Below the pieces are notes generated by a model. It did not search any database. It worked only from the letters and a program-made list of their open reading frames with translations, and was not told the DNA's origin. A stretch of DNA of 23,362 nt from a virus, in the IMG/VR virus record IMGVR_UViG_3300010354_000680, positions 1 to 23,362 of that record; one strand, 5' to 3'. Position 1 is the stretch's first letter. Each line of letters opens with the position of its first letter. A program made the position numbers and the translations under genes. Positions 1 to 23,362 of the stretch are shown piece by piece.

Positions 1-1205
1 GATTCGAAAAGTAATGTTGAACCATTCCAGCGTTTGACGCTCCAATCTGCACCTGAATTTGGTCTAGTTGTTTTAATCCAAACCGAACCAGTTGGACGTG
101 GAGTTGCGTTAGAAGGATCAGGAACACCTAGCGTTCCCTTCCAAACTGGTACTTCAGTATGCTTACTAATTTGTAATTTAGGAACAAAATATGTACCGGC
201 CGTTAATCCTAAATCTGTTAAAATGGTTCCGGTTCCTGCGGTAATTGTAACAACAGAAGCTGGACTTAATAATGTACTATCTCCTGCATCTGTATCGTCG
301 TGTTCATATCCATAAATTTCTAATTTGCCGTTAACAACAGATGCTTTGACACCACTTATGCCAATATTAATCTTAGTTGCTACATCTTGCACTGTTGAGC
401 CACTTGGACTAACAAGATTATTATTAATGAAGAATGTATGTCCTGGAGTAATAGTAGGATTAGTTTTTGTACTTGACACAGTCGGCCAACTTACGGACCA
501 TTCCTCACTACCAACTTCGACCCATTCACCACCAGTTTGTCCTGGTGCGACTCCTCTACTTTTATACCATAATGTACCAGGATGTAATGTGGTTAAGGCT
601 GCTGTTGCAGAATCGTCAATGGCTACGTATGCATAATCCCCTATACTACCTATAGTATTTTTAGGAGTATTACCGGATAACTGAGTAGGATCTGTAATTA
701 CTGTAGGAATTTTATTAGTAAATCTTTGTCCGCCAGATGTTGTAACAGCGTTACCATTCCATTCAAATATACCAAAAGATGTATTAGCAGTATCCAACCA
801 ATGAGTGCCTGCTACTGGATTCGCGGTAGGTTCTTCTGCACTTGCTGTTAATTCATCTAAGTCTACATCAGCACGAACAACATATGCACGATTACTTACG
901 CCTAACAGACTATAGGCAGCTTGTAATCCATATTCATTTTGTTCTCCTGCATGAATAGGATTATTGTTAGCATCAGTTTTGAAAACTGGATCGCCGAATG
1001 TATCCGCCAAATCTTTCTGACTGGTTAGTAAATAAAGTTGACCTGCATTGGCCTGTGTAGTACCTGGTGCTATGCCTGTGCCGCTAGCATTGCTTTTATC
1101 TTGTGCCGAAGCTACAATAATTAAAGGTACTGTACCTGGTTCTGCTGGTGTATAAAACGATTCGTCAACAACGGTGACTTGTACGCCTGGTGAACTTAAT
1201 GCCAT
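1..1205 (-). CDS. 18: Contractile tail sheath protein gp18, N-terminal part (3' truncated by window edge)
   Basis: The minus-strand frame from ATG at 1205 is open to base 1 and encodes 401 complete codons. It begins MALSSPGVQVTVVDESFYTP, followed by VPLIIVASAQDK and then a DTFGDP...NEYGLQAAYSLLGVSNRAYVVRADV stretch. This is the N-terminal signature of T4-like tail sheath proteins: a leading 'SPGVQV' strand, a glycine/alanine-rich core and an 'AYVVRAD' strand. gp18 subunits polymerise around the tail tube and contract at infection. T4 gp18 is 659 aa, so roughly the last 40% lies outside the window. Residues ~150-400 are Trp/Thr-rich insertion-domain sequence (for example GTLWYKSRG and GSVWIKTTRPN) that is probably exposed on the sheath surface. 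A strong Shine-Dalgarno AAGGAGA (1211-1217) fixes the start. A perfect TATAAATA late promoter lies 57 bp upstream. Identification is by recalled family pattern, not by alignment. Confidence 0.88.
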   Translation of the reverse strand, partial: MALSSPGVQVTVVDESFYTPAEPGTVPLIIVASAQDKSNASGTGIAPGTTQANAGQLYLLTSQKDLADTFGDPVFKTDANNNPIHAGEQNEYGLQAAYSLLGVSNRAYVVRADVDLDELTASAEEPTANPVAGTHWLDTANTSFGIFEWNGNAVTTSGGQRFTNKIPTVITDPTQLSGNTPKNTIGSIGDYAYVAIDDSATAALTTLHPGTLWYKSRGVAPGQTGGEWVEVGSEEWSVSWPTVSSTKTNPTITPGHTFFINNNLVSPSGSTVQDVATKINIGISGVKASVVNGKLEIYGYEHDDTDAGDSTLLSPASVVTITAGTGTILTDLGLTAGTYFVPKLQISKHTEVPVWKGTLGVPDPSNATPRPTGSVWIKTTRPNSGADWSVKRWNGSTLLFE

Positions 1206-4813: not shown

Positions 4814-6400
4814 ATGCAACATTTTTATGACGGACAAATAAGAAGATATCTTATACAAATAATAAGACTGCTTAGTAATTTTACAGTAAAGTATAGCGAC
4901 GGTACTTTAGCTAGAGTACCTGTAACTTACGGCGATTCAGATAGACAAGCTGCTAATATTGTAAATCAGAATAGTGAAAATACTTTATCTAGCACTCCTA
5001 AAATTGCTATCTATATTAACGATTTAGATTTAGATAGATCTAGATTAGGTGATTCGTCATTTGTAGGTAAAGTTCATGTAAGAGAACGTGACATAGAATC
5101 AGGAAATTACACTAGCAGTCAAGGAGCTAATTACACTATTGAAAGATTAATGCCTACACCATATAATCTTAGTATAAAAGTTGATATATGGAGTAGTAGT
5201 ACAGAACAAAAACTTCAAATATTAGAACAAATTTTAGTTTTATTTAATCCTAGTTTAGAAATACAAAGCACTGATAATTACTTAGATTGGACTAGTTTAA
5301 CTGTAGTAGAATTAGAAGATGTAACTTTTACAAGTAGATCTATACCTCAAGGTAATAACATAACAATTGATATCGCAACCTTAAATTTAAAAACTCCTAT
5401 ATACTTGACACCCCCGGCGAAAGTTAAAAAATTAGGTGTAGTAACAAATATAATAATGAATATTTTTGGTAACATAGGAACAGTAGATGAAGGTTATATA
5501 GAAGGATTAGGTGTTGATGTAAATGCCAATCAAACTTTCATATCTGAACAAATTGCAGTAGAAAAAGTAAACGTTGGAGATTATGAATTAGAAGTTTTAG
5601 GATCATCTGTAAGGTTAAAAGTTCCTGATGGGTTAGGCGGATTTAAGAATTGGCAAGTATTGTTAGATCAGTACCCTGGCAAATATAGAGCAGGTATAAG
5701 CAAAGTATATTTGTATCAAAGTGATGGTGCAGAAGTAGTGGGATATTTAAGTTTAAATCCTTTAGACAATACTGTAATGGCAGCGAATTGGGACGAAGAT
5801 ACTTTTCCTACTAATAATCTTATTGAAGGACCATCGAGAGCTCAGGAAAGTTGGGGGTCGTTTGATGCAATAATTGATCCTACTACTACAGGACCTAACA
5901 GCGGATTAACTCCGACAGCAGGAACAAGATACTTAATTCTCGAAAATATTGGAGGAGGTGTAATCGATACTTTTGTAGCTACCTCTAGAGTAGCAAGAAT
6001 TAACACTGGAATAGAATACAGCAAAGTGAATGATTTTGAGTTGTTCGTAAATGGTCTAAATGTAGCTAGTACAAGTTTAAATAAAGACGATAATTTTTAC
6101 ATTGTTCCTACTACTGTCATTTCTATAGGTGCTACAGTAACTTATACGCTAAATTTAAATGAAGACGGACCCGACGCTTGGAAAAATTCAGATAATTCTG
6201 AATTTCTTGCCTTTGCTAATGATATTATAGAATGGGATGGATCTAACTGGCATATTGTATTTTCAGCAGCAGCCAGTGCGGATCAGCTAATTTGGCAAAC
6301 TAACATATATACTTTAACTCAGTATAAATGGAATGGAATAAATTGGGTTAAATCTTTCGAAGGTGAATATAAAAAAGGCGAATGGAGACTGGAACTGTAG
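4814..6400 (+). CDS. 15: Tail sheath stabiliser and completion protein gp15, with long C-terminal extension
   Basis: Of 528 aa, residues 1-~210 closely follow T4 gp15 (272 aa). They open with HFYDGQIRRYLIQIIRLLSN, then RVPVTYGDSDRQ. A PKIAIYINDLDLDRSR strand follows, then MPTPYNLSIKVDIWSSS and KLQILEQILVLFNPSLEIQS, then an ITIDIATLNLKTPIYLTPPA segment. In T4 the gp15 hexamer caps the sheath and tube and contacts the gp13/14 neck. Residues ~225-528 have no T4 counterpart. They end QYKWNGINWVKSFEGEYKKG and WRLEL, a tail I associate with marine phage homologues. The Shine-Dalgarno AAGGAA is at 4804-4809, five bases before the ATG. The end overlaps the Nudix start by 19 bp. Confidence 0.82.
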   Translation: MQHFYDGQIRRYLIQIIRLLSNFTVKYSDGTLARVPVTYGDSDRQAANIVNQNSENTLSSTPKIAIYINDLDLDRSRLGDSSFVGKVHVRERDIESGNYTSSQGANYTIERLMPTPYNLSIKVDIWSSSTEQKLQILEQILVLFNPSLEIQSTDNYLDWTSLTVVELEDVTFTSRSIPQGNNITIDIATLNLKTPIYLTPPAKVKKLGVVTNIIMNIFGNIGTVDEGYIEGLGVDVNANQTFISEQIAVEKVNVGDYELEVLGSSVRLKVPDGLGGFKNWQVLLDQYPGKYRAGISKVYLYQSDGAEVVGYLSLNPLDNTVMAANWDEDTFPTNNLIEGPSRAQESWGSFDAIIDPTTTGPNSGLTPTAGTRYLILENIGGGVIDTFVATSRVARINTGIEYSKVNDFELFVNGLNVASTSLNKDDNFYIVPTTVISIGATVTYTLNLNEDGPDAWKNSDNSEFLAFANDIIEWDGSNWHIVFSAAASADQLIWQTNIYTLTQYKWNGINWVKSFEGEYKKGEWRLEL

Positions 6401-6825
6401 AAATAGACTGTTCGGGCGCATTATTGTGTGCTAAGAATACCTGCAGATTTTTACTATTGCAAAAGGCAAAAGGAAAACACAGAGGACATTGGGGGTTGGT
6501 AGGAGGAACTAACAACAATGGAGAAACAGCTTATCAAGGATTAAAAAGAGAAATAATAGAAGAACTAGGGTTACACCCTGATATTAGAAAAATTATACCA
6601 TTAGAAAGATTCGTAAGTAATGATAGTTTATTTCAATTTCATACCTTTTTTTGCGTTGTAGACAACGAATTTATTCCTATTCTTAGCGAAGAACATTCGG
6701 CATATGGATGGTTTGTAATAGATAATCCGCCAAAACCTTTACATAAAGCACTGGATTTAAGTTTACGCAATAAAATAATTCAAACAAAAATTCAAACGAT
6801 GTTAGATATAATTGATAGTCTATAA
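6382..6825 (+). CDS. Nudix hydrolase
   Basis: This 147-aa protein has a complete Nudix box at residues 42-64: G42-x5-E48-x7-R56-E57-I-I-E60-E61-L-G63-L, matching GX5EX7REUXEEXGU. Upstream, CRFLLLQKAKG and HRGHWGLVGG form the usual strands before the box. Nudix enzymes hydrolyse nucleoside diphosphates linked to another moiety (such as modified NTPs, NADH, ADP-ribose or RNA 5' caps). T4-like phages carry several, including NudE and others. The substrate is not readable from this sequence. The start lies inside the 3' end of gp15 (19-bp overlap, different frame) and follows an AAGGCG-like site, so translation is probably coupled. Confidence 0.9.
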   Translation: METGTVEIDCSGALLCAKNTCRFLLLQKAKGKHRGHWGLVGGTNNNGETAYQGLKREIIEELGLHPDIRKIIPLERFVSNDSLFQFHTFFCVVDNEFIPILSEEHSAYGWFVIDNPPKPLHKALDLSLRNKIIQTKIQTMLDIIDSL

Positions 6826-8169: not shown

Positions 8170-9561
8170 TCAGTATGCATTAAAAAGTTTTGTATCGTAA
8201 ATGAGAGGTATTCGTGCAGGATAATCTGTACTGTACCAATTTCCTCCTCGCAGTTGAGTTATATTAGATCTACCAAAATTTACTTGTGCATTATCAGCAT
8301 TTTGTAACATCATATAGTCTGCATCTATATATTGCTCATAATTCCCGGTACCGCCGTCATTATTCACATCTCTATAACAAGCAAATCCACTTTTGCCTAT
8401 CGGGTGAAAACAGAATCCATATTGACTATCCAGGCTTTGATCCCATAACACCTTGCCATCACTAACACGAATTAACGCAGCATGATATCCGCAATTATAA
8501 TAATAAGAAGCACAATATGCTAGTACATATCTACCGTCTGATGAAACACACCATCTAGCTCCAAATTGTGGGCCTTGGTCGATACCATAACTAGTTGTCC
8601 AACTCATATTACGAACACTTCCTGCTGCTGTTCCATTTGCGTTCCATCTATGTACCCATGCTCCGTAGCTTGGTATCATTTGAAATGATACAATTTTTCC
8701 GTCATCGCACATGACTGGTATAACACGTTGATTGTCTTCGGCGTTTGCATTACTTGGTTTTCCTGTCCACTGCGCATAAGTTAAACTATAATTAGCAGGA
8801 GTGTTAAAGAATGTGTATAAGTCACTTCCGGTATACTGATCTCTTGCGGCTGCTTGATCGGCCATTCCTACATACGTATTTTCAACATATCGAATAAGCC
8901 TAGGCACATTATTATAAACGGTAGGCCGCCATACATAGGCTCCATTCGCCTCTAATACGCAAAGCTGATTTGTCTTAGCGTTATAACTGCTACTGCCATA
9001 TTTAGTGCTTGTAAATCCGCTTTGTTTACTAGAAACTGTTACTCTTTGAGCATTTAGTGCATTCTGATTCCATCCGTACCAATTAGCACTTCTAGGACCT
9101 ATAATCATTCTGTCGCTCAGCCACCATATTGCATAACGTTGATCAGTTTCGTTAACTATAGTGCCTACATCTCTAAATGCTTGAGCTCTATATGTATTGT
9201 AAGAAGTTGTACCAACTACATCGCCGGCATAACCCCCTCCCATAGAAAAAGCTAGGTTGCCTAAATAACCATTACAAGCAGTTCCCTTAGAAGTATTGGA
9301 ATTAGTGCTTATAACAAACTGTGTATTAATATGTTGAGAATTAGAATAGGTATCAAAATTTTCTGGTGCCGCTGTACTATTCATAGTAGATGCTTTCGAC
9401 CCACTATTACTCATGGTATATCTACCAATACAATTATAATTATGATCAAATATACTAAATCCGCCTTGACTGCTATAGCTTGTCCAAATAGCAAAACATG
9501 GCTGTCTATATGGATTGCTACTAGTATATGTTGTTAATGAGTTTCCTAAAAATTGACTCAT
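8170..9561 (-). CDS. Putative tail fibre / adhesin protein, paralogue B
   Basis: This 463-aa protein is rich in Tyr, Asn, Ser, Gly and Trp, with a repeated-strand pattern that looks like a beta-propeller or beta-rich tip. It shares its full architecture with the adjacent 469-aa protein: NPYRQPCFAIW near the N-terminus, FDHNYNCIGRY, NGYLGNLAFSMGGGYAGD, IVNETDQRYAIW, GPRSANWYGW, VSSDGRYVLAYC and IRVSDGKVLWDQ (~365-376). It ends STDYPARIPLIYDTKLFNAY. Position beside fibre-shaft and giant-fibre genes suggests host recognition. No catalytic motif is seen, and the exact family is not recognised. AAAGGAAC precedes the ATG, and the spacer to the paralogue is 16 bp. Confidence 0.55.
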   Translation of the reverse strand: MSQFLGNSLTTYTSSNPYRQPCFAIWTSYSSQGGFSIFDHNYNCIGRYTMSNSGSKASTMNSTAAPENFDTYSNSQHINTQFVISTNSNTSKGTACNGYLGNLAFSMGGGYAGDVVGTTSYNTYRAQAFRDVGTIVNETDQRYAIWWLSDRMIIGPRSANWYGWNQNALNAQRVTVSSKQSGFTSTKYGSSSYNAKTNQLCVLEANGAYVWRPTVYNNVPRLIRYVENTYVGMADQAAARDQYTGSDLYTFFNTPANYSLTYAQWTGKPSNANAEDNQRVIPVMCDDGKIVSFQMIPSYGAWVHRWNANGTAAGSVRNMSWTTSYGIDQGPQFGARWCVSSDGRYVLAYCASYYYNCGYHAALIRVSDGKVLWDQSLDSQYGFCFHPIGKSGFACYRDVNNDGGTGNYEQYIDADYMMLQNADNAQVNFGRSNITQLRGGNWYSTDYPARIPLIYDTKLFNAY

Positions 9562-9577
9562 GATGTTCCTTTAATGT

Positions 9578-10987
9578 TTAAGTAGCTGTTAAAAATGCTC
9601 TATTATCGTATTGTAACGGTATTAGTAATGGGTAGTCTGTAGAATTATAGTTGCCTGATAAATTTTGTGAGATATATGCTCTTGTAATATTTGCCTGTGC
9701 AGCATCTGCTGTACTAGCAAATAAATGATCACAATTTATAGATTGCATATATAAACCTGCACCGCCGTCTGCATTAATATTAATCATCATAGCAAAATCT
9801 GATACTCCTACAGGACTAAAATAGTAAGAATAAGTAGTGTCGTTATTTTGATCCCAAATAAATTTACCATCTGACACTCTGATTATTGCACAGTGCGATC
9901 CACAACCATAATAATAATATGGGCTATAAGCGATAATATACCTACCGTCTGTTGTAACATGCCATCTAGCTCCAAATCTGTCACCTTGATCGTAACCGTA
10001 ACTGGTTGTGCCGCCATAAGTTTTTAAACTGCCTTCTGATGTACCGTTGGCAGCCCATCTAGTTACCCATGCATTTGGATTACCATTTGGAATCATTTGA
10101 TACATAACAACTTTATCGTTATCACACATTACTGTAATACAACGATAGTTGTCTTCAATACCATTATTTCTAGGTTTACCTGATGCAGCAGCATAACTTG
10201 TTGTATAATTACTTACTGTATTAAAGTGAGTGTAAAGAGCACCGGTTGTATTTGCTGTTTGTGCTGTTAATGATTCTGTCACTCCTCTATACATATTTTG
10301 ACTGTAGTAGCGTAAATTTGGCACATTACTATAAATTACCGGTTTCATAGCATAACCAGCATTTGATTCCATCATACAAAATTTATTAGTTTTTGCATTA
10401 TAAGAACCTGTTCCATATCTTGTATTGCTATAACCTGCATTTTTTGTTGTGACAGAAATATTTTGTCCGGTAACCGAGTAGTTATGAAATGCATAATAAT
10501 CGAGACTTCTTGGACCAATTTTAAAAATTGTAGAGTTAACCCATATAGCATAATCTTGATCGATATCATTGACTATGGTACAACAATCTCTCATACCAGT
10601 TGCTCTGTATGATGAATATGCTGTACCACCTATCATTTCAATACCGCATTCTCCAAAATTATATGCACCGCTGTTAAAACTTATATGACCTAAATATCCT
10701 GCAAATTGAGAATTAGTGTAATTAGCATTAGATTGAGCCGGAGAGCTGGTTCTAGTATAATCAGAACCTGACCAGGTGTCAAACATTTCAGGTGCCGAGG
10801 TACTGCTCATTGAAGTTTCTGCATTAGTACCATTAGAATACATGTGTCTTTGTATAGTATTTAAGTTATGGTCTATAAAACTGACACCACCATAACTAGC
10901 TCCTTGATTAGACCAAATTGCAAATGCAGGCTGCGTATAAGGATTTCCCGGTGCGCCGCTTGCTACAAATTCTGAAAGTATTGCCAT
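9578..10987 (-). CDS. Putative tail fibre / adhesin protein, paralogue A
   Basis: This 469-aa protein is a paralogue of the next gene in the operon. Matching blocks include NPYTQPAFAIW (vs NPYRQPCFAIW), SAPEMFDTWS (vs AAPENFDTYS), AGYLGHISF, TIVNDIDQDYAIW, GPRSLDYYAF, NKFCMMESNAGYAMKPVIY, DQGDRFGARWHVTTDGRYII and IRVSDGKFIWDQ. It ends STDYPLLIPLQYDNRAFLTA. The protein is Asn/Ser/Tyr-rich, low in charge and appears all-beta. It probably forms a trimeric or propeller-like adhesin, but that is inferred from composition and neighbours. AGGA precedes the ATG. It lies 13 bp from the fibre-shaft gene upstream. Confidence 0.55.
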   Translation of the reverse strand: MAILSEFVASGAPGNPYTQPAFAIWSNQGASYGGVSFIDHNLNTIQRHMYSNGTNAETSMSSTSAPEMFDTWSGSDYTRTSSPAQSNANYTNSQFAGYLGHISFNSGAYNFGECGIEMIGGTAYSSYRATGMRDCCTIVNDIDQDYAIWVNSTIFKIGPRSLDYYAFHNYSVTGQNISVTTKNAGYSNTRYGTGSYNAKTNKFCMMESNAGYAMKPVIYSNVPNLRYYSQNMYRGVTESLTAQTANTTGALYTHFNTVSNYTTSYAAASGKPRNNGIEDNYRCITVMCDNDKVVMYQMIPNGNPNAWVTRWAANGTSEGSLKTYGGTTSYGYDQGDRFGARWHVTTDGRYIIAYSPYYYYGCGSHCAIIRVSDGKFIWDQNNDTTYSYYFSPVGVSDFAMMININADGGAGLYMQSINCDHLFASTADAAQANITRAYISQNLSGNYNSTDYPLLIPLQYDNRAFLTAT

Positions 10988-12333: not shown

Positions 12334-15300
12334 TTACCTAAAATAACTCCAAGCTAATGGTAATCCTCTAACACCAGCTGTAAAATTAAATGTAGCATTC
12401 ATCTGAATTGCTGATCCAGTAGTTGTAGTAATTTCATTAGATGCAATATATATAAATCCACTAGTAACACTATTTACATTTAAACTAGCTCCGCCGCCGC
12501 CAATTTGTGAAGCTATGTATGCTTTAATAGCTCTTTGCGTTGGTACAATACTATCACTGTTAGCAGTAAAGAACACATCCGTGCTAAATTCTGTAATAGT
12601 TGCACTACCTCCTCCTAATGCCACTGATCCAAGAGTAAGTTCTTGTAGTCCAGCAATATTAAATGCATCTGCATTTAGAGTAGCTACACCAGTGCTTTGT
12701 TCAATTGTAAATAAATCTCCAACTCTAAAATTACCGTCTTGGTCTGTAGATGTAAAGAATACTCTACCACCATTATTTTCCACTGTCTCATTAGCTTGTG
12801 TAGCAGGTTGATCAGGTACACCTCCGGGATAATTTGTTTCGTCAAAATTACCTGTACCAATATCCAAGAAGTCGTGACCTGTTAAACGTACTTGACTATA
12901 ACGTATTCTTGTCGTAACACTTACTTCATGATTAGGTGCATTAAACAATGTCATCTCTGGACTTATTTGGAAAAATGCTGTATACGATCCGTCATTGTCT
13001 CCTAAGAATGTAAGCACATTGACTAATTTGAAAGTTTGATTTGGTAAATGTCCGAACACTACATTAGAACCAGCTACAGGTTGATCTGTTAAACGCTTAA
13101 CTGCTATATATTGTCCAGATTGGAAAAAATCGCCAAAGCCGTCACCGCTATCAACTTCTGCACTAGCACTAACATATCCTGTGCCTCTATTAGTAAAACT
13201 AGGATTAGCTAAACACCCTTTTCCTTTTCTTACCAGTGTAGGTGCTTCGAATGTATTATTTGGGTCTGTTATAGTAATAGTCGGTGCTACACTATATCCT
13301 GATCCAGGTTCTGTAATTCTAATAGCAAATATTTTTTCTTGTGCAACAAATGCTCTAGCTTTAGTGGTAGCGCCTAAAAGAACACTACTAGCTACAGTAC
13401 TGGCTGTACTTCTTTGTACTGCTGCCCAAATACCGCTTTGATTTGGATTTCCGAATGCGATACTGCTAAATCCGTTGGCTGCTGTACTCATAGTTCTTGA
13501 AGTCCACACAATACCGTCTTCTGAACTTGCGGCTTGTGTGCTTTGACTGACTGCTAAAAATACTCCTTGTCCATAAGCTACATGAGTATATGTAGCACTG
13601 GTTATTGTACTTGCTGTCCAAGTCACACCATCTAAACTGTAAGCTGCTGCTGTACCTGCTGTATTTGCTACTGCTACAAATCTTCCATTTCCATATGTTA
13701 CACTTATCCAGTTTTGACTTGAAGGAAGAGTTCTTGATGTCCATGTTAGTCCGCCGTCGGATGAACTAGCGGCTGCTGTACCTCCACCAGCTATAGCTAC
13801 CCAAATACCACCTCCATAAGCAGCTGATATCCAAGAAGAACTAGATGGTAATGCACCGCCCGAAGTCCAACTTATACCGCCATTAGTACTATATGCACTA
13901 CTTGTTGCACCTGAACGTATAGCCACCCATCTGCCGTTACCGTAAGCAACACCTGACCAGTTTCCCGAAGCGGGTAAGGCACCGCCTGATGACCATGTTA
14001 TACCTCCATCTGTACTATATGCGTTTATTGTAGTTGTAGTTGATACTGCTACTAAATGATAAGCATTAGGAGAAGCTGTTCCTGTTCCTGTTCCTACACC
14101 TGTTGCAACAAACACAGTACCTACAATATTTGCTAATGCACCGATACCAATAAAGTTGGTGCTACCAATGGATACAATAGTGTAACTTCTGCCGACAACA
14201 AAACTACCTGCTGTTTCTGTTACTGTTAGCTTTCCGCCTGCTAATGATGTCCAGCCGCTTGTACTTGGAAGTGCTGTTAATCTTTGTGTCCAAGATGTTC
14301 CATTGGCACTAGTATTAGTAGTTTGTGAACCTGAACTTATAGCTACGAAGTTTCCTCCGGCACCATAGCCAGTATATTCAAAATTTAAAATTGCTCCTGA
14401 AACGCTATTAATACTAGTTACTGTTATAGTAATATCATTAGTTGTGCTTGTTCCATCTAATGAAGTTCCTGCTATTGTTAAAGTATCTAATCTAGTATAA
14501 TTAGTTCCTCCTTGATATACGTAAACAAAATACTTAGTGCCTTTTCTCATTACATTGAATCTTGCACCTGATCCTGTTCCTCCAGTGGCTGCAACATTTA
14601 TGTATGTTTTAAATAGCGGACTAAAAATAACATCATTATATGTTTGACTTGTTGCAAGAGTTCTTGCAGTACTACTGTAAGAAGGACTAGTGAAAGAAAC
14701 TCTTGGTTCAATTACATATGTTGTAGAAGCATCAGGAGAACTTATAGTTGTACCTGGCACAACATGATCCCATCCTGCTGCACCTGTAGTTTCTTTTATA
14801 ACTGTAGCGACTTTTGTTCCGCTGTTGTATGTGTTAATAATTCCAAATTGTCCGACTCCTGATCCGCCTGTTAAATAAATTTTCATTCCTACATAAGCAG
14901 TGCTGATTTCACTATCTGTTGCAGCGATAGTAATTTGTGTACTTGTACCGCCTTGTGCAGTATTTGCGTTAGAAACATATCCAAATCCTCCAAAGTTACC
15001 GTCTGCTTCTGGAGCATTTGAGCTATCATCTATATTATCTAATAGATGTACTTGGAATACACCGTCATCTCTAAATTCATTTTCTTGGGAAGCCGCTGCA
15101 TTAATACCTGATCCATTAATCAACCATACAACTTCAGTATAATCTGTTCCGCAGTTTTCAAATTCAAAACGATATATTTCATTACTGTTATCTGTATAAA
15201 CTCCACCTACAGTTGCAGTATAAGCTCTGTTATCTACAACAGCAGTATTAGGAGTTTCTGTAGAATCGAATCCTTCTGCTACTGATCCAAAATCTCCGTA

Positions 15301-18300
15301 TGAATTGTTACCGTTAGTACCTCTAATACGGCCGCCGTTTTCAGCAAGATAGCCTATGTGTGCATAATATGTAAATACACTTACCAGCTCAGCTCTGCCG
15401 TTGTTAGTAATCCATGCACCAATACCGTCTGAAATTACTTGTGTAAAATCGTTTGAGACAATGGAATCATTACCGCCGTTATGCAGTGCTCCGTCAATTT
15501 TTTGTCCTATAGCAGCATATCCAAATGTGGTTACATTTTGTACGTAAGGGCTTCTGCCAATAATCCATGTTCTATAATCTTCTGGTCCCCATCCTGGATC
15601 TAAACTGCAATATGCACCTGCACTTACTCTTGATGTACCGTAAGAATTTATAGGTAACAAGTCTCCAGTTAATCCCTCTAATGTTTGATTTCTTACTCCG
15701 GTGGCATTTCTTAGATAATACATATCTTCTTCAAGACTGCCTTTAACAGCATTTGAGTAATATCTTGCAGACATTAAAGATTTATAGTTTCCTGGATACT
15801 GTAGATCTTCTTTAACTGCATCTAAGTATCTGTTAACATCTCTCAAACAAGATTCAGAGTCGTAAGATAAAGATACCGAACATGATCCAGCAGAAGTACT
15901 TAAAGGAAATCCTGATGATGCATTTCTTGACAATGCGATAGTAAATTGTGTTGAATTTACTACATTTTGTACATAATATACTTGATTAGCAACTATTCCA
16001 CCAAATGTTGTTCCTGTAAATTTAATTGCTGCGTTTCTTTGTAACCATGAAGTACTAGATACTGTAATTAAATTTGTACCAGTTGTTGTGTTTGTAACAG
16101 TAGTTGTATAGGTACTTGTAATGTATGCACTAATTTCACTTTCTATATAACTTCGATTTCTTTCAATTTGTAATCTTGCATAGTGTATGTTTGGTTCGCC
16201 ATCAATACATCTACTTCCTTCAAAAGTTGCACCAAAGATAATGTCATCTAATGTAGTCATTAGAGTTTCGATTCTACTTTGAGCTGTAGCATCGCCTCCT
16301 ACATTAGATTTAGATTGACTTTTTACGTAGGTAAAAGCTGCTCTAGTAGCTTCTTTTTGTCCTAGATTAAAGACATCTGATGCACTAGATCTCAGATATG
16401 AATATGCTGCAATAATGGTTTGAAAATTACTATTAAACATGAAATCGTAACTAACTGCATCAAGAATTATTCTTGCATCTCTCTCACATTTTGTTGAATT
16501 GTATACAAGAGTTGGATAGTTCGTAGTTATAAAAGACGTCATATTAGACACTATAGTATTAACTGCTGCACTTAAAGTTGTATAGGCAGTAATTAATGCT
16601 GTTGTAGTAGTTACCGCATTAGTCGCGGCCGGACGGTCCTCATAATCTACAATATAAGTAAGTCCGCTACCGTTTGTTAAACTTCCAACAGCGGATCCTG
16701 CATAGCTAGTTGAAATTTGAAATGCAGTGGCAGTTAATCCTGATGCAATAACGTAATATCTAACATCGGCTGTTAAGCCGTATGCTGTTGTTCTTGGTAC
16801 AATTAAATCACCTACAGCTAAACCATGTGCTGCTGTAGTGTTTAAAGTGTTAGTACCTGTAATACTTGTTATAGTTAAATTTGGTCTTCCTGTAGTGCTG
16901 CCGGCATTTAAAATATTGATTATGATATCTACATTATTGTTAATAAATGTTCCTGCTGGTGCTCCTCCTGTAAGATTTACAGTATCTGTCCATTGCGAAG
17001 CTGTATTTCCGCTAGATTTTGATACTGCTGTATTAATAATTATCTGTCCTAACACAGTTTTTAATCTAGCATAGGCGGATAAACGAGGATTTAACTCTGT
17101 ACTATCAATCATTAAAGTGCTACCTGGACCATCGTAATATGATAAAGCTGCAACTAGTGATTGAGTGCTTCCGTTATAGGTTAAATCGTAAATTAGTGCA
17201 TCAATAATATAACCAACATCTCTTTTTAATTGAGTTCTACTATATCTTAATGTTGGATAGTTAAAAGACATCCATGCTGCAATTTCTTCTGAAATAAAAA
17301 CTTTATTTTCAGAAATTAAAGTTCTTGCATCTTTGTATCCTATTAGATAACTTGCATTATAACCTGTTGGATCAGTATTAAATGCAAGATGCATTGTATC
17401 AAGATTAAAGTCTATTTTGTGTTGAATAGTTCTTATTAGTCTTTTAACTGTAGTCTCTTGTGTGGTAACAGCCAGTGGCCATTGAATACTTTGAGCAGCA
17501 TTATTCCCTGAACTTTCAGTTACATTTGATCCTAGAACGATTTGTCCTAACACAGTTTCGAGTCTACTTAGAGCACCTAAACTATATTTTGCATCGTATC
17601 TACTAACTAAACTGCCTGCTGGTCCAGCATTTGTTGAGCGAACTTCGTCTCCAAGGATACAAGTTGATTCAGGAACAATAATTGGTAATACTTCTCTATA
17701 TCTTCCTGATTTGACATTAATTAAATTACTAGGACTGTATCTATCTGGAATATCGTCCGGAACTCCTGCTTCTATTGCATCAGTGATAATAGTCAATAAA
17801 CTTGTAACATCTGATAATACATTTGTTTCAGATGTATAATCAGTGTTAATAAACTGAGGAACTACAGCAGTTGAATTATCTCCGTTTAGCACCTGATAGT
17901 TAGTAGCAGGTGCTTGATTATCTAAAACATTTTCAATAAGCGTTAATAGATAATTGTAAGCTGCTAAACTTTCGTCTGATTCTGCACCTAATCCGCTGTA
18001 AGGAAGAGTTTCTGACTCACTTAACCCTCCTACAAAACTATTTGCAGCACCTCTAGATTTAACATTACCTCCGTGTGCAATATCATAAATTAACGCATCA
18101 ATTACAAATCCTACATCTCTTTCACATCTATCTTGTTTATAAATAAATCCTGATGTAAACGGTGAAATGTTGTTTGAAACTTGATAATCGATCCATTCAC
18201 TAATTTCTCTTTGCATAAACACTCTGTTCATTTCTAACAAGTATCTAGCATTTGGATTACGTGGTCCTTTTTCTATTTGCTCACACGCATAGCGAATTGT

Positions 18301-19947
18301 TTTCCATGGTTTGTCTAAAGTTAAACCGTGAACAGGTGAAGGTAAATCGACTCCTGTTGGAGCAACGTAATAAACATGATCAACTCTGCCTAAGCTTACC
18401 CATTCAGGATCAGTTCCGTCACTGCGGAGAACTTGTCCTTCAAGACCAATTGGTAATCTTGTAGGACCTGCACCTCCGTAATAAACTAAATCACCTCTAG
18501 TGGTTAATGCACTAGTTTCTGTGCCGATAGCTAAAGTATTCCAATAGTTTCCGGGTGTATCTTGATCTGGTCTACTATTAGGCATACCTCCACCTGTTCC
18601 GCCAATAGTAGATCCATCGTCGCCTTCTGATCTATGATTTTGTACACAGATATAAGTGTTTGCCGCTAATCTTACAACATCACCTACAAAGTATTCTACA
18701 TCATCTTGCCACACACCTCTCCAATATACACCACTGTTTAATCTTGTCCAATAACTGCTATTAGGTGGCATTGCACTTACTGTAACAGTCATTGAGCCTG
18801 CGCCAGCAGTTGGAGTAAAAGTAGTACCTCCAGGAGTTGTGGTAATAGTTAGAGTTGATCCTGTTAAAACTTGTTTTACATAGTAATTTGCACCTGCTAG
18901 TACATTACCAAATGTTGTACCAGTAAAAGTTATTTTCATTCCTGCCACTATTCCAGTGGTAGATGTTACTGTAAATGCATAAGGTGCAATTGCTTGTGAA
19001 ATAGTAGAAGTAGTTGAAATTGAAGGACTGTCTGTAATTGCAAGGTAACTGTTTCCATTCAATAAAACAACATCACCTATCTTATAAGAAACTGTATTAT
19101 TCCATGTAGAGTTAAAATTGAAACCTTCGCTGAATAAATCCCAATCTGATGTAGCAGTCAAAGGATTTTGATTAACATTTATAGATTTAGCAATATATTG
19201 ATTGCCACCGTATCTAACAATATCGCCGTATTGATAGGTTGTTACAGAACTCCATGTATCTTCAAACTCTATACCTTCTACAAATTGATCCCAGTTAGCG
19301 ATGTCTGTAGAAAATACAGATGAAGTGTGCTGTGTAGTACAAATCCAAAGAGTTGGGCCGTATTTTACAACATCGTTTAACTTATACCGTATAGCATTTT
19401 GCCAATCGCCTTTGAATTCTAAACCTTCATTAAATTCGTCCCAATAGCTTTGATCGTTTTCTAATCCTAATGAACTAGTAGCTGCACTAGTATGTCCTGT
19501 GTTACATACATATGTGATACCTCCATATGCTACAAGATCTCCTATTTTATACCTCGTGCTTACTGTCCAATCAGTTTTAAAATCTAACCCTTTAGCGAAT
19601 ACTTGCCACTTAGATAAGTCTGCTTCTAAACCTAGTGAAGTTGTTGCAGCACTAGTATGACTGTCTATACACAGATATATTAAACCGCCATATTTTACTA
19701 AATCATTTAATTTATAAAATGTAGAGACTGTCCAATCGCTTTTCCAGTCTTGACCATCGGACATTAAATTCCATCGAGCAGGACTGAATTCTAAATCTGT
19801 ATTAAAATCAGGGGCAGAGCTATGACCTACTACACAAATGTATGTTCTTCCGCCGTATCTTACAACATCATCTTTATAATATGTCGTAGAGGTTGTCCAG
19901 GTATTTTTCCATACAAATTTAATTCTGCCAAGTTTGAATTCAGCCAT
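12334..19947 (-). CDS. Giant modular tail-fibre / baseplate-associated protein
   Basis: This is a 2537-aa virion protein. In order: (a) ~12-472, seven CBM5/12-like modules (W..T..Y...D.V.YGG..Y.C...H.S), the sixth with an inserted ~75-aa beta domain; (b) ~520-1400, four helical repeats with cores near residues 611, 909, 1156 and 1369 (RDVGFVIDALIYD, RDVGYIIDALIYD, RDARIILDAVSYD, RDVNRYLDAVKED), separated by variable inserts; (c) ~1410-1700, a SLDPGWGPEDYRTW / TTFGYAAIGQKIDGALHNGG region; (d) ~1870-2170, an Asp-box-like propeller (AYSTNGGISW, ASSSDGGLTW, AYSLDGVTW); (e) ~2340-2537, GHDFLDIGTGNFDETNYPGG, STDQDGNFRVGDLFTIEQ and VPTQRAIKAYIAS. Parts c-e recur in the next giant gene. This is a known class in marine T4-like phages with no clear enzymatic function. 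A beta-rich spike or fibre role in receptor binding is inferred. GGAGT lies before the ATG. Confidence 0.7.
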   Translation of the reverse strand: MAEFKLGRIKFVWKNTWTTSTTYYKDDVVRYGGRTYICVVGHSSAPDFNTDLEFSPARWNLMSDGQDWKSDWTVSTFYKLNDLVKYGGLIYLCIDSHTSAATTSLGLEADLSKWQVFAKGLDFKTDWTVSTRYKIGDLVAYGGITYVCNTGHTSAATSSLGLENDQSYWDEFNEGLEFKGDWQNAIRYKLNDVVKYGPTLWICTTQHTSSVFSTDIANWDQFVEGIEFEDTWSSVTTYQYGDIVRYGGNQYIAKSINVNQNPLTATSDWDLFSEGFNFNSTWNNTVSYKIGDVVLLNGNSYLAITDSPSISTTSTISQAIAPYAFTVTSTTGIVAGMKITFTGTTFGNVLAGANYYVKQVLTGSTLTITTTPGGTTFTPTAGAGSMTVTVSAMPPNSSYWTRLNSGVYWRGVWQDDVEYFVGDVVRLAANTYICVQNHRSEGDDGSTIGGTGGGMPNSRPDQDTPGNYWNTLAIGTETSALTTRGDLVYYGGAGPTRLPIGLEGQVLRSDGTDPEWVSLGRVDHVYYVAPTGVDLPSPVHGLTLDKPWKTIRYACEQIEKGPRNPNARYLLEMNRVFMQREISEWIDYQVSNNISPFTSGFIYKQDRCERDVGFVIDALIYDIAHGGNVKSRGAANSFVGGLSESETLPYSGLGAESDESLAAYNYLLTLIENVLDNQAPATNYQVLNGDNSTAVVPQFINTDYTSETNVLSDVTSLLTIITDAIEAGVPDDIPDRYSPSNLINVKSGRYREVLPIIVPESTCILGDEVRSTNAGPAGSLVSRYDAKYSLGALSRLETVLGQIVLGSNVTESSGNNAAQSIQWPLAVTTQETTVKRLIRTIQHKIDFNLDTMHLAFNTDPTGYNASYLIGYKDARTLISENKVFISEEIAAWMSFNYPTLRYSRTQLKRDVGYIIDALIYDLTYNGSTQSLVAALSYYDGPGSTLMIDSTELNPRLSAYARLKTVLGQIIINTAVSKSSGNTASQWTDTVNLTGGAPAGTFINNNVDIIINILNAGSTTGRPNLTITSITGTNTLNTTAAHGLAVGDLIVPRTTAYGLTADVRYYVIASGLTATAFQISTSYAGSAVGSLTNGSGLTYIVDYEDRPAATNAVTTTTALITAYTTLSAAVNTIVSNMTSFITTNYPTLVYNSTKCERDARIILDAVSYDFMFNSNFQTIIAAYSYLRSSASDVFNLGQKEATRAAFTYVKSQSKSNVGGDATAQSRIETLMTTLDDIIFGATFEGSRCIDGEPNIHYARLQIERNRSYIESEISAYITSTYTTTVTNTTTGTNLITVSSTSWLQRNAAIKFTGTTFGGIVANQVYYVQNVVNSTQFTIALSRNASSGFPLSTSAGSCSVSLSYDSESCLRDVNRYLDAVKEDLQYPGNYKSLMSARYYSNAVKGSLEEDMYYLRNATGVRNQTLEGLTGDLLPINSYGTSRVSAGAYCSLDPGWGPEDYRTWIIGRSPYVQNVTTFGYAAIGQKIDGALHNGGNDSIVSNDFTQVISDGIGAWITNNGRAELVSVFTYYAHIGYLAENGGRIRGTNGNNSYGDFGSVAEGFDSTETPNTAVVDNRAYTATVGGVYTDNSNEIYRFEFENCGTDYTEVVWLINGSGINAAASQENEFRDDGVFQVHLLDNIDDSSNAPEADGNFGGFGYVSNANTAQGGTSTQITIAATDSEISTAYVGMKIYLTGGSGVGQFGIINTYNSGTKVATVIKETTGAAGWDHVVPGTTISSPDASTTYVIEPRVSFTSPSYSSTARTLATSQTYNDVIFSPLFKTYINVAATGGTGSGARFNVMRKGTKYFVYVYQGGTNYTRLDTLTIAGTSLDGTSTTNDITITVTSINSVSGAILNFEYTGYGAGGNFVAISSGSQTTNTSANGTSWTQRLTALPSTSGWTSLAGGKLTVTETAGSFVVGRSYTIVSIGSTNFIGIGALANIVGTVFVATGVGTGTGTASPNAYHLVAVSTTTTINAYSTDGGITWSSGGALPASGNWSGVAYGNGRWVAIRSGATSSAYSTNGGISWTSGGALPSSSSWISAAYGGGIWVAIAGGGTAAASSSDGGLTWTSRTLPSSQNWISVTYGNGRFVAVANTAGTAAAYSLDGVTWTASTITSATYTHVAYGQGVFLAVSQSTQAASSEDGIVWTSRTMSTAANGFSSIAFGNPNQSGIWAAVQRSTASTVASSVLLGATTKARAFVAQEKIFAIRITEPGSGYSVAPTITITDPNNTFEAPTLVRKGKGCLANPSFTNRGTGYVSASAEVDSGDGFGDFFQSGQYIAVKRLTDQPVAGSNVVFGHLPNQTFKLVNVLTFLGDNDGSYTAFFQISPEMTLFNAPNHEVSVTTRIRYSQVRLTGHDFLDIGTGNFDETNYPGGVPDQPATQANETVENNGGRVFFTSTDQDGNFRVGDLFTIEQSTGVATLNADAFNIAGLQELTLGSVALGGGSATITEFSTDVFFTANSDSIVPTQRAIKAYIASQIGGGGASLNVNSVTSGFIYIASNEITTTTGSAIQMNATFNFTAGVRGLPLAWSYFR
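14074..14211 (-). repeat. 46-residue 'VVGRSYTIVSIG' module inserted in propeller
   Basis: These codons of the giant fibre encode AGSFVVGRSYTIVSIGSTNF, then IGIGALANIVGTVFVATGVG and TGTGTA. This small Gly/Val-rich unit interrupts an Asp-box propeller blade between WTSLAGGKLTVTET and SPNAYHLVAVS. The same motif (VVGxxYTIxSxGTTxFxxIGA..N.VGxxFxATG.G.GTGTA) is one I recall as a recurring insert in marine phage virion proteins. The paralogous giant gene lacks it at the equivalent place. A GTTCCT tandem triplet (14080-14095) underlies the TGTGTA end. Confidence 0.6.
18532..19914 (-). repeat. Seven tandem CBM5/12-like modules in the giant fibre
   Basis: Each ~50-residue unit follows W-x(2)-T-x(3)-Y-x(3)-D-x-V-x-YGG-x(2)-Y-x-C, then H(T/S)S, and ends in an N/S-x-W and an x-G-x-x-(F/W) linker. 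Linkers include DGQDWKSDW, KGLDFKTDW, EGLEFKGDW, EGIEFEDTW, EGFNFNSTW and SGVYWRGVW. Module 6 (~282-402) has an extra beta domain between YLAITDSP and MPPNSSYW. The spacing of W, Y, D and W resembles chitin/cellulose-binding CBM5/12 folds. Glycan binding is plausible but not shown. Confidence 0.6.
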
Positions 19948-20000: not shown

Positions 20001-23000
20001 TCAAAACGACTTGTAAAATTGGATTAGTCCTAACCAGCTACCGCTTAACCCAATATCTGGACCTACAAAGTCTGCCATTACAGTAATATTATTAGCTAAA
20101 CTTGCTGTATTATCTATTTCGTCTGGTCCTATTTTCACAGTACCTGCAATAAAACTTGCTGTGAGTAAATCTGCACCTCCAACATTTAAACGATTCGCTA
20201 GATAGGCTTTGATAGCTCTTTGAGTAGGAATAATATTATTTGAGTCTGCTACAAATAACGGGTCTGTTGAAAACTCTCTAACAACAGTACCTGATCCACC
20301 TAATCTTACTCCACCTAATGCTAATTCTGATAACCCTTGTAAATTAAAAAAGTCTGCACTAATTGTAACTATTCCGGTAGCCTGTTCTACAGCAAATAAT
20401 TCTCCTGTTCTGAAGTTACCAGTTTGATCTGTTGATGTGTAAAATACTCTACCACCTTCAAGTTCGACTACTTCGTTTTCAGGAGCACTGTTAAAAAGAC
20501 CCGTGGCATATAATTCGGGATAATTAGTTTCGTCAAAATTACCAGATCCAATATCTAAGAAATCGTGTCCTGTAATTCTTACTTGACTATATCTTGTTCG
20601 TATTTCAACTTCTGTATTATGAAGAATATTGTCATCATATGATAATGCAGGAGTAATTCTGAAATATCCAGTAAATGTGCCGTTTTGAACACTAACTATT
20701 TCTTCTGTGATAACCGTATGAAATCCAGTTGCTCCTCCAAATCTAAATTGAGCACCGGGTCCTGGCAATGCTGATAAATTTTCAACGTAAATAAACGCAC
20801 TATCAGGTATTATATCTGCGAATCCGTCACCTACTATTTCAACTGTAGTAGTGCTTGTTCGATAAGATATTCCTCTATTTGTCCAGCTCGGCTGAGCTAA
20901 AACTCTATCGGCTGTTCTACAATTCACATATGCGTCTTCTACATTATTAGGATCTATAATTGTTACAGTAGGTGCAGTTAAATATCCGCTTCCTGGTTCC
21001 CATAACTTAATTTGACTTATCGATCCGCTTTCTACTACTACTCTTCCTAAGGCTCTTGCACCTGTAAAGATTTTATTTAACTCGCTTTCCCCGCTTGCAG
21101 GTAGTGTAATCCAAATTCCAGTACTATTAGATAAAGTTGTCGAGTCTCCGTCACTTATATCTGGATTTCCGAACCCTAAATTTACCCAGCTAGATTGTTT
21201 TGCAAGTGTTCTTCCTGTCCAAGTTATACCATCATAACTAGTAGCTGCAAAATTAGTAGGACCCGATGTAGGATCATTTCCTATGATTCTGCTTCCTGTG
21301 TCGCAAATAGCAAAAAATACACCTTGAGCATATTTTATTTTTTTCCAGTACATTTGAGTTGAACCATCCTGTGATGGCATCGCCGCACTTGTCGTATTCC
21401 AATGTAATCCATCAAATGTTATACTGACATCTCCTGTGCTACTGATTGCTACGAATCTTCCATTGCCGTAAGCAATACTGGTCCAGTCTTTTGGGGTAGA
21501 ATCGTCTACTTCTATAACATTAGCAGTCCAAGTTAATGTACCTAATCCTGAATTATAAACTCCTGTAGCAGATGCATTGTTACTATTTGCTAATGCAATA
21601 AACTTTCCATTTCCATAGGCTACAGATATCCATTGATTAACTGTAGAGTCTCCTAAATCAGGAATAGTAGATGCATTCCATGTTACACCATTAGTACTCC
21701 AAGCTGTAGAATCTTGATTGCTGGATACTATAACAAAAATACCGTCACCGTATACTCCGGTTATCCATTGTCTGACACTTGGCAGTGTTCTAAGTGTCCA
21801 ATTTACAGCATCGTTAGATACATATGCAACGTTACTTGCGTTCGCTACAGCTACAAATGTGTTTTCTCCCCAAATTAAACAACTGTAATTACCTGGTTGA
21901 GGTAGTGACAAATCATCCCATGTTTCACCATCATAACTAACTAAGTAAACAGCTCCACTAGTTGCTGTAGTAACAAATAATCCGCTATGAGCTATTCCTT
22001 TATAGGTAAAATCTGTAATTGAATTCGTGCTATCATCACTAATTTCTGTAACGGTAATTACAATGTCATTTTCGCCGCTCACACCGCCGACATCTGCTCC
22101 GTCTATAGTTACTATTTGATTCAATTCGTAGCCTGCACCACCATTAGCCAAAGTTACAACATATTCTCTTGCATTTTTGTTAACATTAAATAGTGCGTCA
22201 GTAGGAGCCACATCGACTGTAGTTCCTGTTCCTGGAGAACCTACAACTAGAGTAAAAGTTTCTTGTGTTTCGCCGTATACAATATTAGCCCAACCTAAAC
22301 CAACACCTGTATCGACATTTTCTGCGGTAAAACCTGGATCTGAAAAAATAGGTCTTGGCTCAAATCTGTAGACTGTATTAGTGGTAATGATACTGGGATA
22401 AGGATATCCTGGCACTACATGGTCCCAACCTAACTCTCCGTTACTTTCTTTTCTCACAGTTACAATTTTGTTAAGTTCATCATATGAATCAACATAACCA
22501 TATTGCCCTGTGCCTGGTCCGCTAGTTAAAATAATTCTTAAACCTAAAATTTCTGCTTGTGTACTATCATCATTAGAAGCTATTGTAATAGTGGTATTAT
22601 CTCCAAACTGTGCATTATTACCGGTAAGAGTATAGCCATCGCCGCCTGGAGTATTGTTTATATCTCCTGGAAAATTTCTTACTTGCGCTTCAAAAATTCC
22701 GTCATCTCTTGTTTCTTCAAATCGAGCGATAGCACCAGATCCTGAGCCTACAATGTTAAAAGATGCTGTACTATAATTTTGTCCTGCATTTGCATATTCT
22801 ATTACAAGTATTTCGTCATTCGCTTCTCCCGCGAATGCACTAGCTACCACTGCTTGATTAAATCTATTGTTGATATTAGCAAAAGACGGAGTTTCAGTTG
22901 GGTCATTTCCAAGACTTAATGCTCCGTAATTACCATATGAACTATTTCCATTAGTTGCTCTAATAATGCCGCCGTTTTCTGCATACATACCTATATGTGC

Positions 23001-23362
23001 ATAGTATGTAAACACACTTACTAGTTCGGCTCTCCCGTTATTAGTTACCCATGCACCTACGCCATCTGATATAACTTGTGTAAAATCATTAGATACTATA
23101 GACTTATTACCGCCGTTGTGTAATGCACCATCAATTTTTTGACCTGTAGCTGCATATCCGAATGTAGTAACGTTTTGAACATAGGGAGATCTTGAACTTA
23201 TCCATACACTTTCATCGTTTGGTCCCCAACCTGGATCTAAGCTACAAAATGCACCGCCTGTTGGTCTTCTATCTCGTAAAATTGTATTTGTTGGGCTTAA
23301 TGTTCCTGTAAGCCCGCTAAGTGTCATATTTCTTACACCAGTAGTATCTCTTAGATAAAACA
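20001..23362 (-). CDS. Second giant fibre protein, C-terminal part (5' end beyond the window)
   Basis: The frame is open to the right edge. The first in-window Met at 23327 is internal, because codons upstream encode FYLRDTTGVRN, aligned with YYLRNATGVRN of the 2537-aa protein. About 1,119 residues are in the window, and the true start must lie outside. Shared blocks include SLDPGWGPNDESVW, TTFGYAATGQKIDGALHNGG, ELVSVFTYYAHIGMYAENGG, GWDHVVPG, an Asp-box-like propeller region, RITGHDFLDIGSGNFDETNY, STDQTGNFRTGELFAVEQ and IPTQRAIKAYLANRL. The C-terminal ~55 residues diverge (ending SGSWLGLIQFYKSF). It probably forms a homologous virion spike or fibre. The stop is TGA at 20001, with 53 bp to the next gene and no visible terminator. 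Confidence 0.7.
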   Translation of the reverse strand, partial: FYLRDTTGVRNMTLSGLTGTLSPTNTILRDRRPTGGAFCSLDPGWGPNDESVWISSRSPYVQNVTTFGYAATGQKIDGALHNGGNKSIVSNDFTQVISDGVGAWVTNNGRAELVSVFTYYAHIGMYAENGGIIRATNGNSSYGNYGALSLGNDPTETPSFANINNRFNQAVVASAFAGEANDEILVIEYANAGQNYSTASFNIVGSGSGAIARFEETRDDGIFEAQVRNFPGDINNTPGGDGYTLTGNNAQFGDNTTITIASNDDSTQAEILGLRIILTSGPGTGQYGYVDSYDELNKIVTVRKESNGELGWDHVVPGYPYPSIITTNTVYRFEPRPIFSDPGFTAENVDTGVGLGWANIVYGETQETFTLVVGSPGTGTTVDVAPTDALFNVNKNAREYVVTLANGGAGYELNQIVTIDGADVGGVSGENDIVITVTEISDDSTNSITDFTYKGIAHSGLFVTTATSGAVYLVSYDGETWDDLSLPQPGNYSCLIWGENTFVAVANASNVAYVSNDAVNWTLRTLPSVRQWITGVYGDGIFVIVSSNQDSTAWSTNGVTWNASTIPDLGDSTVNQWISVAYGNGKFIALANSNNASATGVYNSGLGTLTWTANVIEVDDSTPKDWTSIAYGNGRFVAISSTGDVSITFDGLHWNTTSAAMPSQDGSTQMYWKKIKYAQGVFFAICDTGSRIIGNDPTSGPTNFAATSYDGITWTGRTLAKQSSWVNLGFGNPDISDGDSTTLSNSTGIWITLPASGESELNKIFTGARALGRVVVESGSISQIKLWEPGSGYLTAPTVTIIDPNNVEDAYVNCRTADRVLAQPSWTNRGISYRTSTTTVEIVGDGFADIIPDSAFIYVENLSALPGPGAQFRFGGATGFHTVITEEIVSVQNGTFTGYFRITPALSYDDNILHNTEVEIRTRYSQVRITGHDFLDIGSGNFDETNYPELYATGLFNSAPENEVVELEGGRVFYTSTDQTGNFRTGELFAVEQATGIVTISADFFNLQGLSELALGGVRLGGSGTVVREFSTDPLFVADSNNIIPTQRAIKAYLANRLNVGGADLLTASFIAGTVKIGPDEIDNTASLANNITVMADFVGPDIGLSGSWLGLIQFYKSF

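Follow-up and report, generated by a model that had tools for sequence, protein, structure and literature searches.

Phycobiliprotein-type globins as probable repeat units of a giant virion fibre

What kind of domain forms the helical repeats of the giant tail-fibre protein in virus record IMGVR_UViG_3300010354_000680, and how do the beta-rich stretches lying among the repeats relate to them? The whole stretch analysed (positions 1 to 23,362 of this virus record, 23,362 bases, hereafter the window) holds on its minus strand, at 12334–19947, an open reading frame (ORF) for a protein of 2537 amino acids (aa), P0001, which matches three PHROG families: 5342, 4527 and 9851 (the last a tail fiber protein, expectation value (E) 2.9e-179). 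An account made from the letters alone, here the sequence-only reading, had described helical repeats separated by inserted beta domains. It missed the main point, namely that the helical unit (~150 aa) appears to be a globin of phycobiliprotein type. We consider it probable that the repeats are domesticated phycobiliprotein-type globins strung in a giant virion fibre, an explanation that takes in homology, fold, module insertion and structural use.

Four homologous helical units in P0001

The four helical units of P0001 are homologous. The motif by which they had been recognised, RDx4[IL]DAxx[YE]D, is borne out at four cores starting at aa 608, 907, 1154 and 1367, two residues ahead of each RD (window positions 18082–18126, 17185–17229, 16444–16488 and 15805–15849; these and all parts of P0001 given below are on the minus strand), and shuffling the residues of P0001 2000 times produced the pattern in no case. 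The N-x-x-S/T stretch said to follow each core is in register in three of the four repeats, repeat 2 having Ser in place of Asn. The shrinkage of the spacing is likewise real (299, 247 and 213 aa between cores) and has no single cause; the earlier account needs correcting for the first and longest interval, which contains beta strands and a partial repeat and no module of the M type described below.

P0001 was aligned with similar viral contigs (35 loci, plus the best 80 of 595 more), and the two window proteins were searched with a seed profile that drew on repeat 2 and its orthologues and on none of repeats 1, 3 and 4. This profile found repeat 1 (E 1.8e-21, aa 566–728), repeat 3 (E 2.5e-17, aa 1121–1228) and, in two pieces separated by a beta module, repeat 4 (profile positions 11–42 at aa 1257–1288, E 3.1e-5; positions 36–85 at aa 1359–1408, E 6.4e-8). 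All six HHalign pairs among repeats 1, 2 and 3 and the RD half of repeat 4 reached 95.9–99.8% probability. By both of these sequence methods, and by the predicted secondary structure of the model described below, the repeats are equivalent. The iterated repeat profiles have the window's own stretch (L001) among their members, which makes the E-values that they give for the window non-independent.

Repeat 1, a putative phycobiliprotein-type domain that is helical in a 1086-aa predicted model, occupies aa 565–727 (17767–18255) and bears CERD at 18115–18126. It is followed by a beta-strand segment at aa 741–776 (17620–17727; model strands 227–262) and by a partial repeat consisting of the C-terminal half only, at aa 777–846 (17410–17619), to which the seed profile aligns over aa 788–839 (E 4.8e-5) and an iterated profile over aa 777–846 (E 9.7e-17); HHalign pairs this half-unit with repeat 2 at 94.8% and with repeat 1 at 5.7%. 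Repeat 2, the source of the seed, is a complete bare unit at aa 864–1017 (16897–17358) in which the Cys has been lost (LKRD, 17218–17229). Repeat 3 spans aa 1112–1247 (16207–16614; CERD at 16477–16488), and repeat 4 is divided into a helix ahead of the loop at aa 1253–1289 (16081–16191) and a second part with the CXRD helix at aa 1359–1408 (15724–15873; CLRD at 15838–15849).

In a set of 123 nonredundant frames that includes the window copy, cores are 130–179 aa apart in 25 of 220 intervals (25 of 223 with the window copy included) and at least 200 aa apart in the others; because the shorter spacing recurs, the bare unit is put at ~140–160 aa. Relatives carry from one to more than 20 units per protein. 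At the upper end, a 5616-aa frame of L036 (2473–19320, plus strand) has 22–24 units of putative phycobiliprotein type and no match to the three module profiles.

Kinship with phycobiliproteins in fold and sequence

The unit is predicted to have the globin-like fold of phycobiliproteins. In the 1086-aa model (mean predicted local distance difference test (pLDDT) 77.5, predicted template modelling score (pTM) 0.80, most residues past 966 under pLDDT 50), helices for the repeats and strands for modules M1 and M2 follow in that order, and a fold search with the model placed phycobilisome proteins at the top (E 0.02). VIA-align of the same model returned phycobiliprotein or phycobilisome chains in 49 of the 50 listed rows (Z 14.6–16.9), mostly on repeat 2. 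Folded alone with AlphaFold, repeat 2 gave pLDDT 93.6 and pTM 0.88, and its own VIA-align search again listed such chains in 49 of 50 rows, the other being titled 'Bacterial fluorescent protein', with Z 14.9–16.9 and a root-mean-square deviation of 2.1–2.9 over 126–140 residues; residues 1–151 of the unit mostly align with ~29–177 of the known chains. Foldseek listed 48 rows of the same kind among 50, the other two being 8u0f. A helical arrangement alone can give Z 14, and sequence is therefore needed to decide.

For this purpose 63 of 68 filtered units, five having been dropped by hand, were joined with window repeat 2 in a profile of 64 diverse units (A2); a second profile of 69 units (A4) restored those five. 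Searched against 177,635 PDB sequences, A2 gave 41 matches at E ≤ 10, of which the first 38 were phycobiliproteins (best 8.9e-5) and the first unrelated chain stood at 0.94. The result with A4 was somewhat stronger: 49 matches headed by 40 phycobiliproteins (best 5.7e-5), with one unrelated chain, at 0.43. In Pfam, the family most often matched by the A2 units was PF00502 (9 of 64 units, best 2.5e-5; the next family, 3). Of 25 phage records, four have giant frames in which this family exceeds its cut-off: S-CREM1 passes on a single match, and DSL-LC03, S-PM2 and S-RIM32 pass by the summing of adjacent matches in the frame. In named phages, 19 of 21 PF00502 matches overlap A2 matches. Automatic Pfam annotation may already flag PF00502 in the S-PM2 or S-RIM32 proteins.

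The comparison was also made from the cyanobacterial side, where 151 CxRD frames were sorted by motif into 72 alpha, 73 beta and 6 excluded, leaving 69 and 71 after duplicate removal. HHalign of the phage unit profile with the 69 CpcA sequences gave 93.8% with A2 and the same with A4; 20 column shuffles stayed at 0.8% or less, and the reversed profile reached 0.4%. Searched in 12 cyanobacterial genomes, the phage profile made 14 matches at E ≤ 0.1 in 11 of them, all in frames of 163–182 aa, and the four loci read among these all hold phycobiliproteins.

The kinship is also visible at the pigment-holding residues. The window motifs are CERD, LKRD, CERD and CLRD in repeats 1–4, that is, CXRD in three of four; the phycocyanin counterparts are CARD at 84 in CpcA and CLRD at 82 in CpcB, and in the alignment of A2 with PDB sequences the Cys, Arg and Asp of the phage KCxRD align with the chromophore Cys and its accompanying Arg and Asp in CpcA (CARD). 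Complete CXRD is present in 52 of 64 units (A2) and 54 of 69 (A4; Cys in 61, Arg in 61, Asp in 68). A count of 205 among 235 distinct cores leans high, as 37 further matches without a placeable RD-like core were excluded, and the two former fractions are fairer. Phycocyanin spacing is kept at C+2 (Arg), C+3 (Asp), C+8 (hydrophobic), C+13 (Tyr) and C+18 (Gly).

Several points weigh against the phycobiliprotein identification. The best Foldseek E is 1.7e-3, with none ≤ 0.001; according to the tool's own note, mostly helical models without a clear relative typically have 14 as their best Z and can score as much as 13 at rank 50, where the present value is 14.9; and phycobiliprotein structures belong to the material on which AlphaFold was trained. 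Aligning from about residue 29 onwards, the unit seems to be without the initial ~28 residues of phycobiliproteins (helices X and Y); the N-terminal X–Y helices of light-harvesting phycobiliproteins serve alpha–beta pairing. In the 1086-aa model, some rows extend to residue 8–10 through a helix preceding repeat 2. The best PF00502 match in the window, at repeat 3 (16432–16626, E 0.0079), is under the cut-off, so that no window repeat passes; three of the four passing records depend on summed matches; and since at E ≤ 1 the family also matches three control bacteria besides the cyanobacterium, weak matches to it count little. HHalign with the 71 CpcB sequences gave only 10.7% (A2) and 23.4% (A4), and the E-values throughout are modest and profile-based.

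These modest E-values, the ease with which helical folds are matched and the concentration of the sequence signal in 50–60 residues around the motif would suit an ordinary alpha-helical fibre bundle, its likeness to phycobiliproteins being convergence and its CxRD chance. We regard this as very unlikely, because searches by sequence alone single out one and the same family in the whole PDB and in Pfam, the signal is gone in shuffled and reversed controls, the fold match spans the whole unit with nearly every row in one family, and the motif-region residues from C+2 Arg to C+18 Gly hold to the phycocyanin spacing. Homology and a shared fold between the helical units and phycobiliproteins are rated very probable. 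An account that stops at helical repeats of unspecified fold with domain insertions, as in the sequence-only reading, has sequence statements that hold in the main; it omits the kinship seen in both sequence and fold, and we give it still less chance than convergence of being the fuller explanation.

Phycobiliproteins of PF00502 (phycocyanin, allophycocyanin and phycoerythrin) share with the phage units a predicted fold over the whole unit, the CXRD spacing and a detectable sequence kinship. The phage units differ in being repeated inside giant frames (2537 aa here, 3162–7312 aa in named phages), in the apparent lack of the N-terminal residues, in a conserved Asp at +14 (61 of 64) and Gly-Gly-Asn after the helix (Asn in 84%), and in the beta modules lying in the loop ahead of CXRD.

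Beta modules and their two sites

Beta modules enter mainly at two places, the loop just ahead of the CXRD helix (site A, module end ≤ 20 aa ahead of the core) and the stretch between units (site B, 35–75 aa ahead). The window has three. M0 is inserted in the region of CBM_5_12 modules at aa 324–398 (18754–18978), where the M2 profile matches aa 324–389 (E 5.5e-14); M1 lies at site B between repeats, aa 1022–1105 (16633–16884); and M2 lies at site A inside repeat 4, just ahead of CLRD, aa 1286–1360 (15868–16092), where the M0 profile matches aa 1287–1362 (E 8.2e-19). The likeness of M2 to the insert in the CBM region, noted in the sequence-only reading, holds at 99.6% by HHalign with cleaned alignments, by which M0 and M1 pair at 94.1% and M1 and M2 at 89.9%; before cleaning the values were 99.5% (M0/M2), 90.6% (M0/M1) and 90.8% (M1/M2). 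In sequence alignments, site A falls on the variable loop preceding Cys84 of phycocyanin. Ubiquitin E1 enzymes occur among the Foldseek rows of the whole 1086-aa model at a probability of 0.25–0.51 only, and M0, M1 and M2 might be candidates for a domain like the FCCH domain of ubiquitin E1.

A census of 64 relatives with at least three cores counted 128 module matches within the repeat region, 66 at site A, 48 at site B and 14 elsewhere (12 of the 14 being M1 ahead of core 3), and 56 more outside the region. In one of these 12, L045, an extra ~140 aa lies between M1 and the profile match. Most of the module matches are orthologous, so the independent insertion events are few.

Could the beta stretches instead be integral parts of each repeat? 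A module stands just ahead of the last core in 62 of the 64 relatives, L018 and L036 having none. Against this, window repeats 1–3 have no insert of the M2 type, and the read alignments show that the sequence of L018 is continuous where M2 is missing and that L018, L020, L024 and L035 lack M1 at its place in the window. In L027, L035, L077 and L066 a module sits in repeat 1 at the site that M2 occupies in repeat 4 of the window, window repeat 1 being without it, and bare units recur at the 130–179 aa spacing noted above. Presence and absence therefore vary among related phages as they would for separable inserts, and we judge integral inserts the least credible of the alternatives, with next to no probability. 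The nesting of domains in repeats that had been offered as a model of fibre evolution stands as far as equivalent repeats and separable inserts are concerned, and falls short in having missed the globin.

Under the globin explanation, each unit would serve as a compact helical spacer, giving the fibre length or shape, a role that we rate slightly better than even. The beta modules may add binding surfaces at the loop sites while leaving the helical core undisturbed, and would come and go between phages; the two preferred loop sites would then be the places at which fibre modules are gained and lost.

Cyanophage occurrence and bilin binding

A tblastn search with the repeat region (E ≤ 1e-3) matched 48 of 50,697 phage records, of which 47 are named cyanophages and the other is a marine single-cell virus. 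In a panel of 17 named records, 6 taken for matching and 11 chosen by the author, repeats were present in 11 (3–11 profile matches each, in frames of 3162–7312 aa), and no repeat was found by profile in P-SSM2, Ma-LMM01, P-SSP7, T4, Mosig or PA5oct. Carriers are the S-PM2 tail fiber p091, P-HM2 gp7, an S-RIM32 'short tail fiber', an S-CREM1 baseplate wedge, an S-SCSM2R 'large exoprotein' and a DSL-LC03 hypothetical protein. The giant structural proteins of cyanophages (PHROG 5342, 4527 and 9851) have the same repeats as P0001, several per genome, and the annotation of the six stretches read names no such domain; the phycobiliprotein kinship would supply a likely identity for a large unannotated part of these proteins. 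Since among named phages the unit is found almost only in cyanophages, its ancestor may have been a cellular bilin-binding globin or a phycobiliprotein. If the explanation is true, viruses, above all those of cyanobacteria, have turned a protein of pigment-antenna type into repeated giant structural parts in which the pigment-holding residues are mostly kept.

The retention of CXRD implies continuing selection on the region of the pocket, whether for a ligand or for the fold itself. In favour of a ligand, the motif is kept in most units, and cyanophage tail fibres and baseplates could be biliproteins whose CXRD repeats bind linear tetrapyrroles from the host or from phage heme oxygenase and bilin reductase, perhaps loaded by the phage protein of CpeT type; we think this unlikely. 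A globin-derived unit that keeps CXRD for folding or packing only and no longer binds a ligand is, by a small measure, the favoured alternative. It is in line with the lack of matches to psbA, CpeT and ferredoxin-dependent bilin reductase in the window and seven related contigs (63–199 kb, maybe fragments), with the presence of bilin reductase and absence of repeats in P-SSM2 and Mosig, and with the 7 of 11 repeat-bearing named phages without a bilin reductase match; the conserved Asp at +14 and Asn after Gly-Gly suggest that the pocket may have a new job. Packing alone, however, hardly explains why 56 of 64 units have a lone Cys at the same column (the next-best Cys column has 7 of 64) when the overall Cys content is 0.6%.

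Gene co-occurrence does not clearly support the holding of bilins by the repeats. CpeT is present in 9 of the 11 repeat-bearing panel records and in 0 of the 6 without repeats, a difference explicable by relatedness, as only P-SSM2 and Ma-LMM01 among the panel's cyanobacterial myoviruses lack the repeat. Bilin reductase occurs in 4 of 11 repeat-bearing and 2 of 6 repeat-less records, which is no association; the gene is located elsewhere in P-HM2, P-HM1, P-SSM4 and P-RSM4. S-RIM32 has a CpeT-like antenna gene (L117, 6139–6672) that precedes the gene of its giant repeat protein by ~1.8 kb on the upstream side. Bilin-binding repeats, if real, would give phage bilin genes a target in the virion, and CXRD globins encoded by the phage are candidates for the partner of these genes, open to testing by expression in a laboratory strain; the repeats cannot be the whole answer to phage bilin genes because P-SSM2 is without them.

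Among the open-licence papers listed by the searches, no title or opening of an abstract places a phycobiliprotein-like domain in a phage structural protein. Bilin biosynthesis-associated globins (BBAGs) with CXRD were described by Rockwell, Martin and Lagarias in 2023 (PMC10151467). Like the phage units they are non-antenna relatives of phycobiliproteins; unlike them they are bacterial and lie beside bilin-synthesis genes (PMC10151467). The seven mentions of phages or viruses in that paper all concern bilin reductases or references. The benefit of bilin genes to Prochlorococcus phages was called unclear with regard to P-SSM2 (PMC2984593), and a later paper left the purpose of phage bilin enzymes open ('only speculate'), naming a BBAG as one possible partner, in a phage thought to infect alphaproteobacteria (PMC11480375). 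The virion proteins of S-CREM2 have been listed (PMC10665884), and RaK2 has structural proteins similar to those of other myoviruses, above all the cyanobacterial ones (PMC3622015). Two papers mention host phycobiliproteins (PMC9146016, PMC8875764), and the main text on the A-1(L) tail structure contains neither 'phycobili' nor 'phycocyanin' (PMC10966104).

The remainder of P0001 and of the window is described for completeness. The N-terminus of P0001 is a run of CBM_5_12 modules at aa 10–470 (18538–19920, limits approximate and set by eye), which belong to PF02839 (7 stretches, E 3.2e-36, 123.5 bits against a cut-off of 26.2); they are separate from the helical repeats, and the M0 insert sits among them. 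A single-sequence PDB search matched this region and, weakly, a part close to the C-terminus. At aa ~1880–2230 (window ~13258–14310) are several 'SxDGxxW...SWxxVxYGxGxxVAV' stretches, propeller-like by eye, with no Pfam family over cut-off. Similar stretches occur in a paralogue of P0001 that lies upstream at 20001–23360 (minus strand), has the same PHROG 9851 and is truncated by the record end; profile searches found no RD repeat in the part held by the window, and many relatives have a neighbouring frame of ~1780–2010 aa with one RD repeat. Searches of NCBIfam, of Rfam at gathering scores and of phages by megablast with the window gave no match. Adjoining frames at 8170–9561 and 9578–10987 (minus strand; 463 and 469 aa) look by eye like tandem copies, without a Pfam match at E 0.1, and the frame at 6382–6825 (plus strand) has by eye a Nudix-like box. 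The first 150 aa of a tail-sheath-like frame at 3–1205 (minus strand) are 59% identical, over 149 aa, to PA5oct-type jumbo phages, so that within one window the sheath N-terminus is nearest to PA5oct-type phages whereas the fibre repeats are cyanophage-like.

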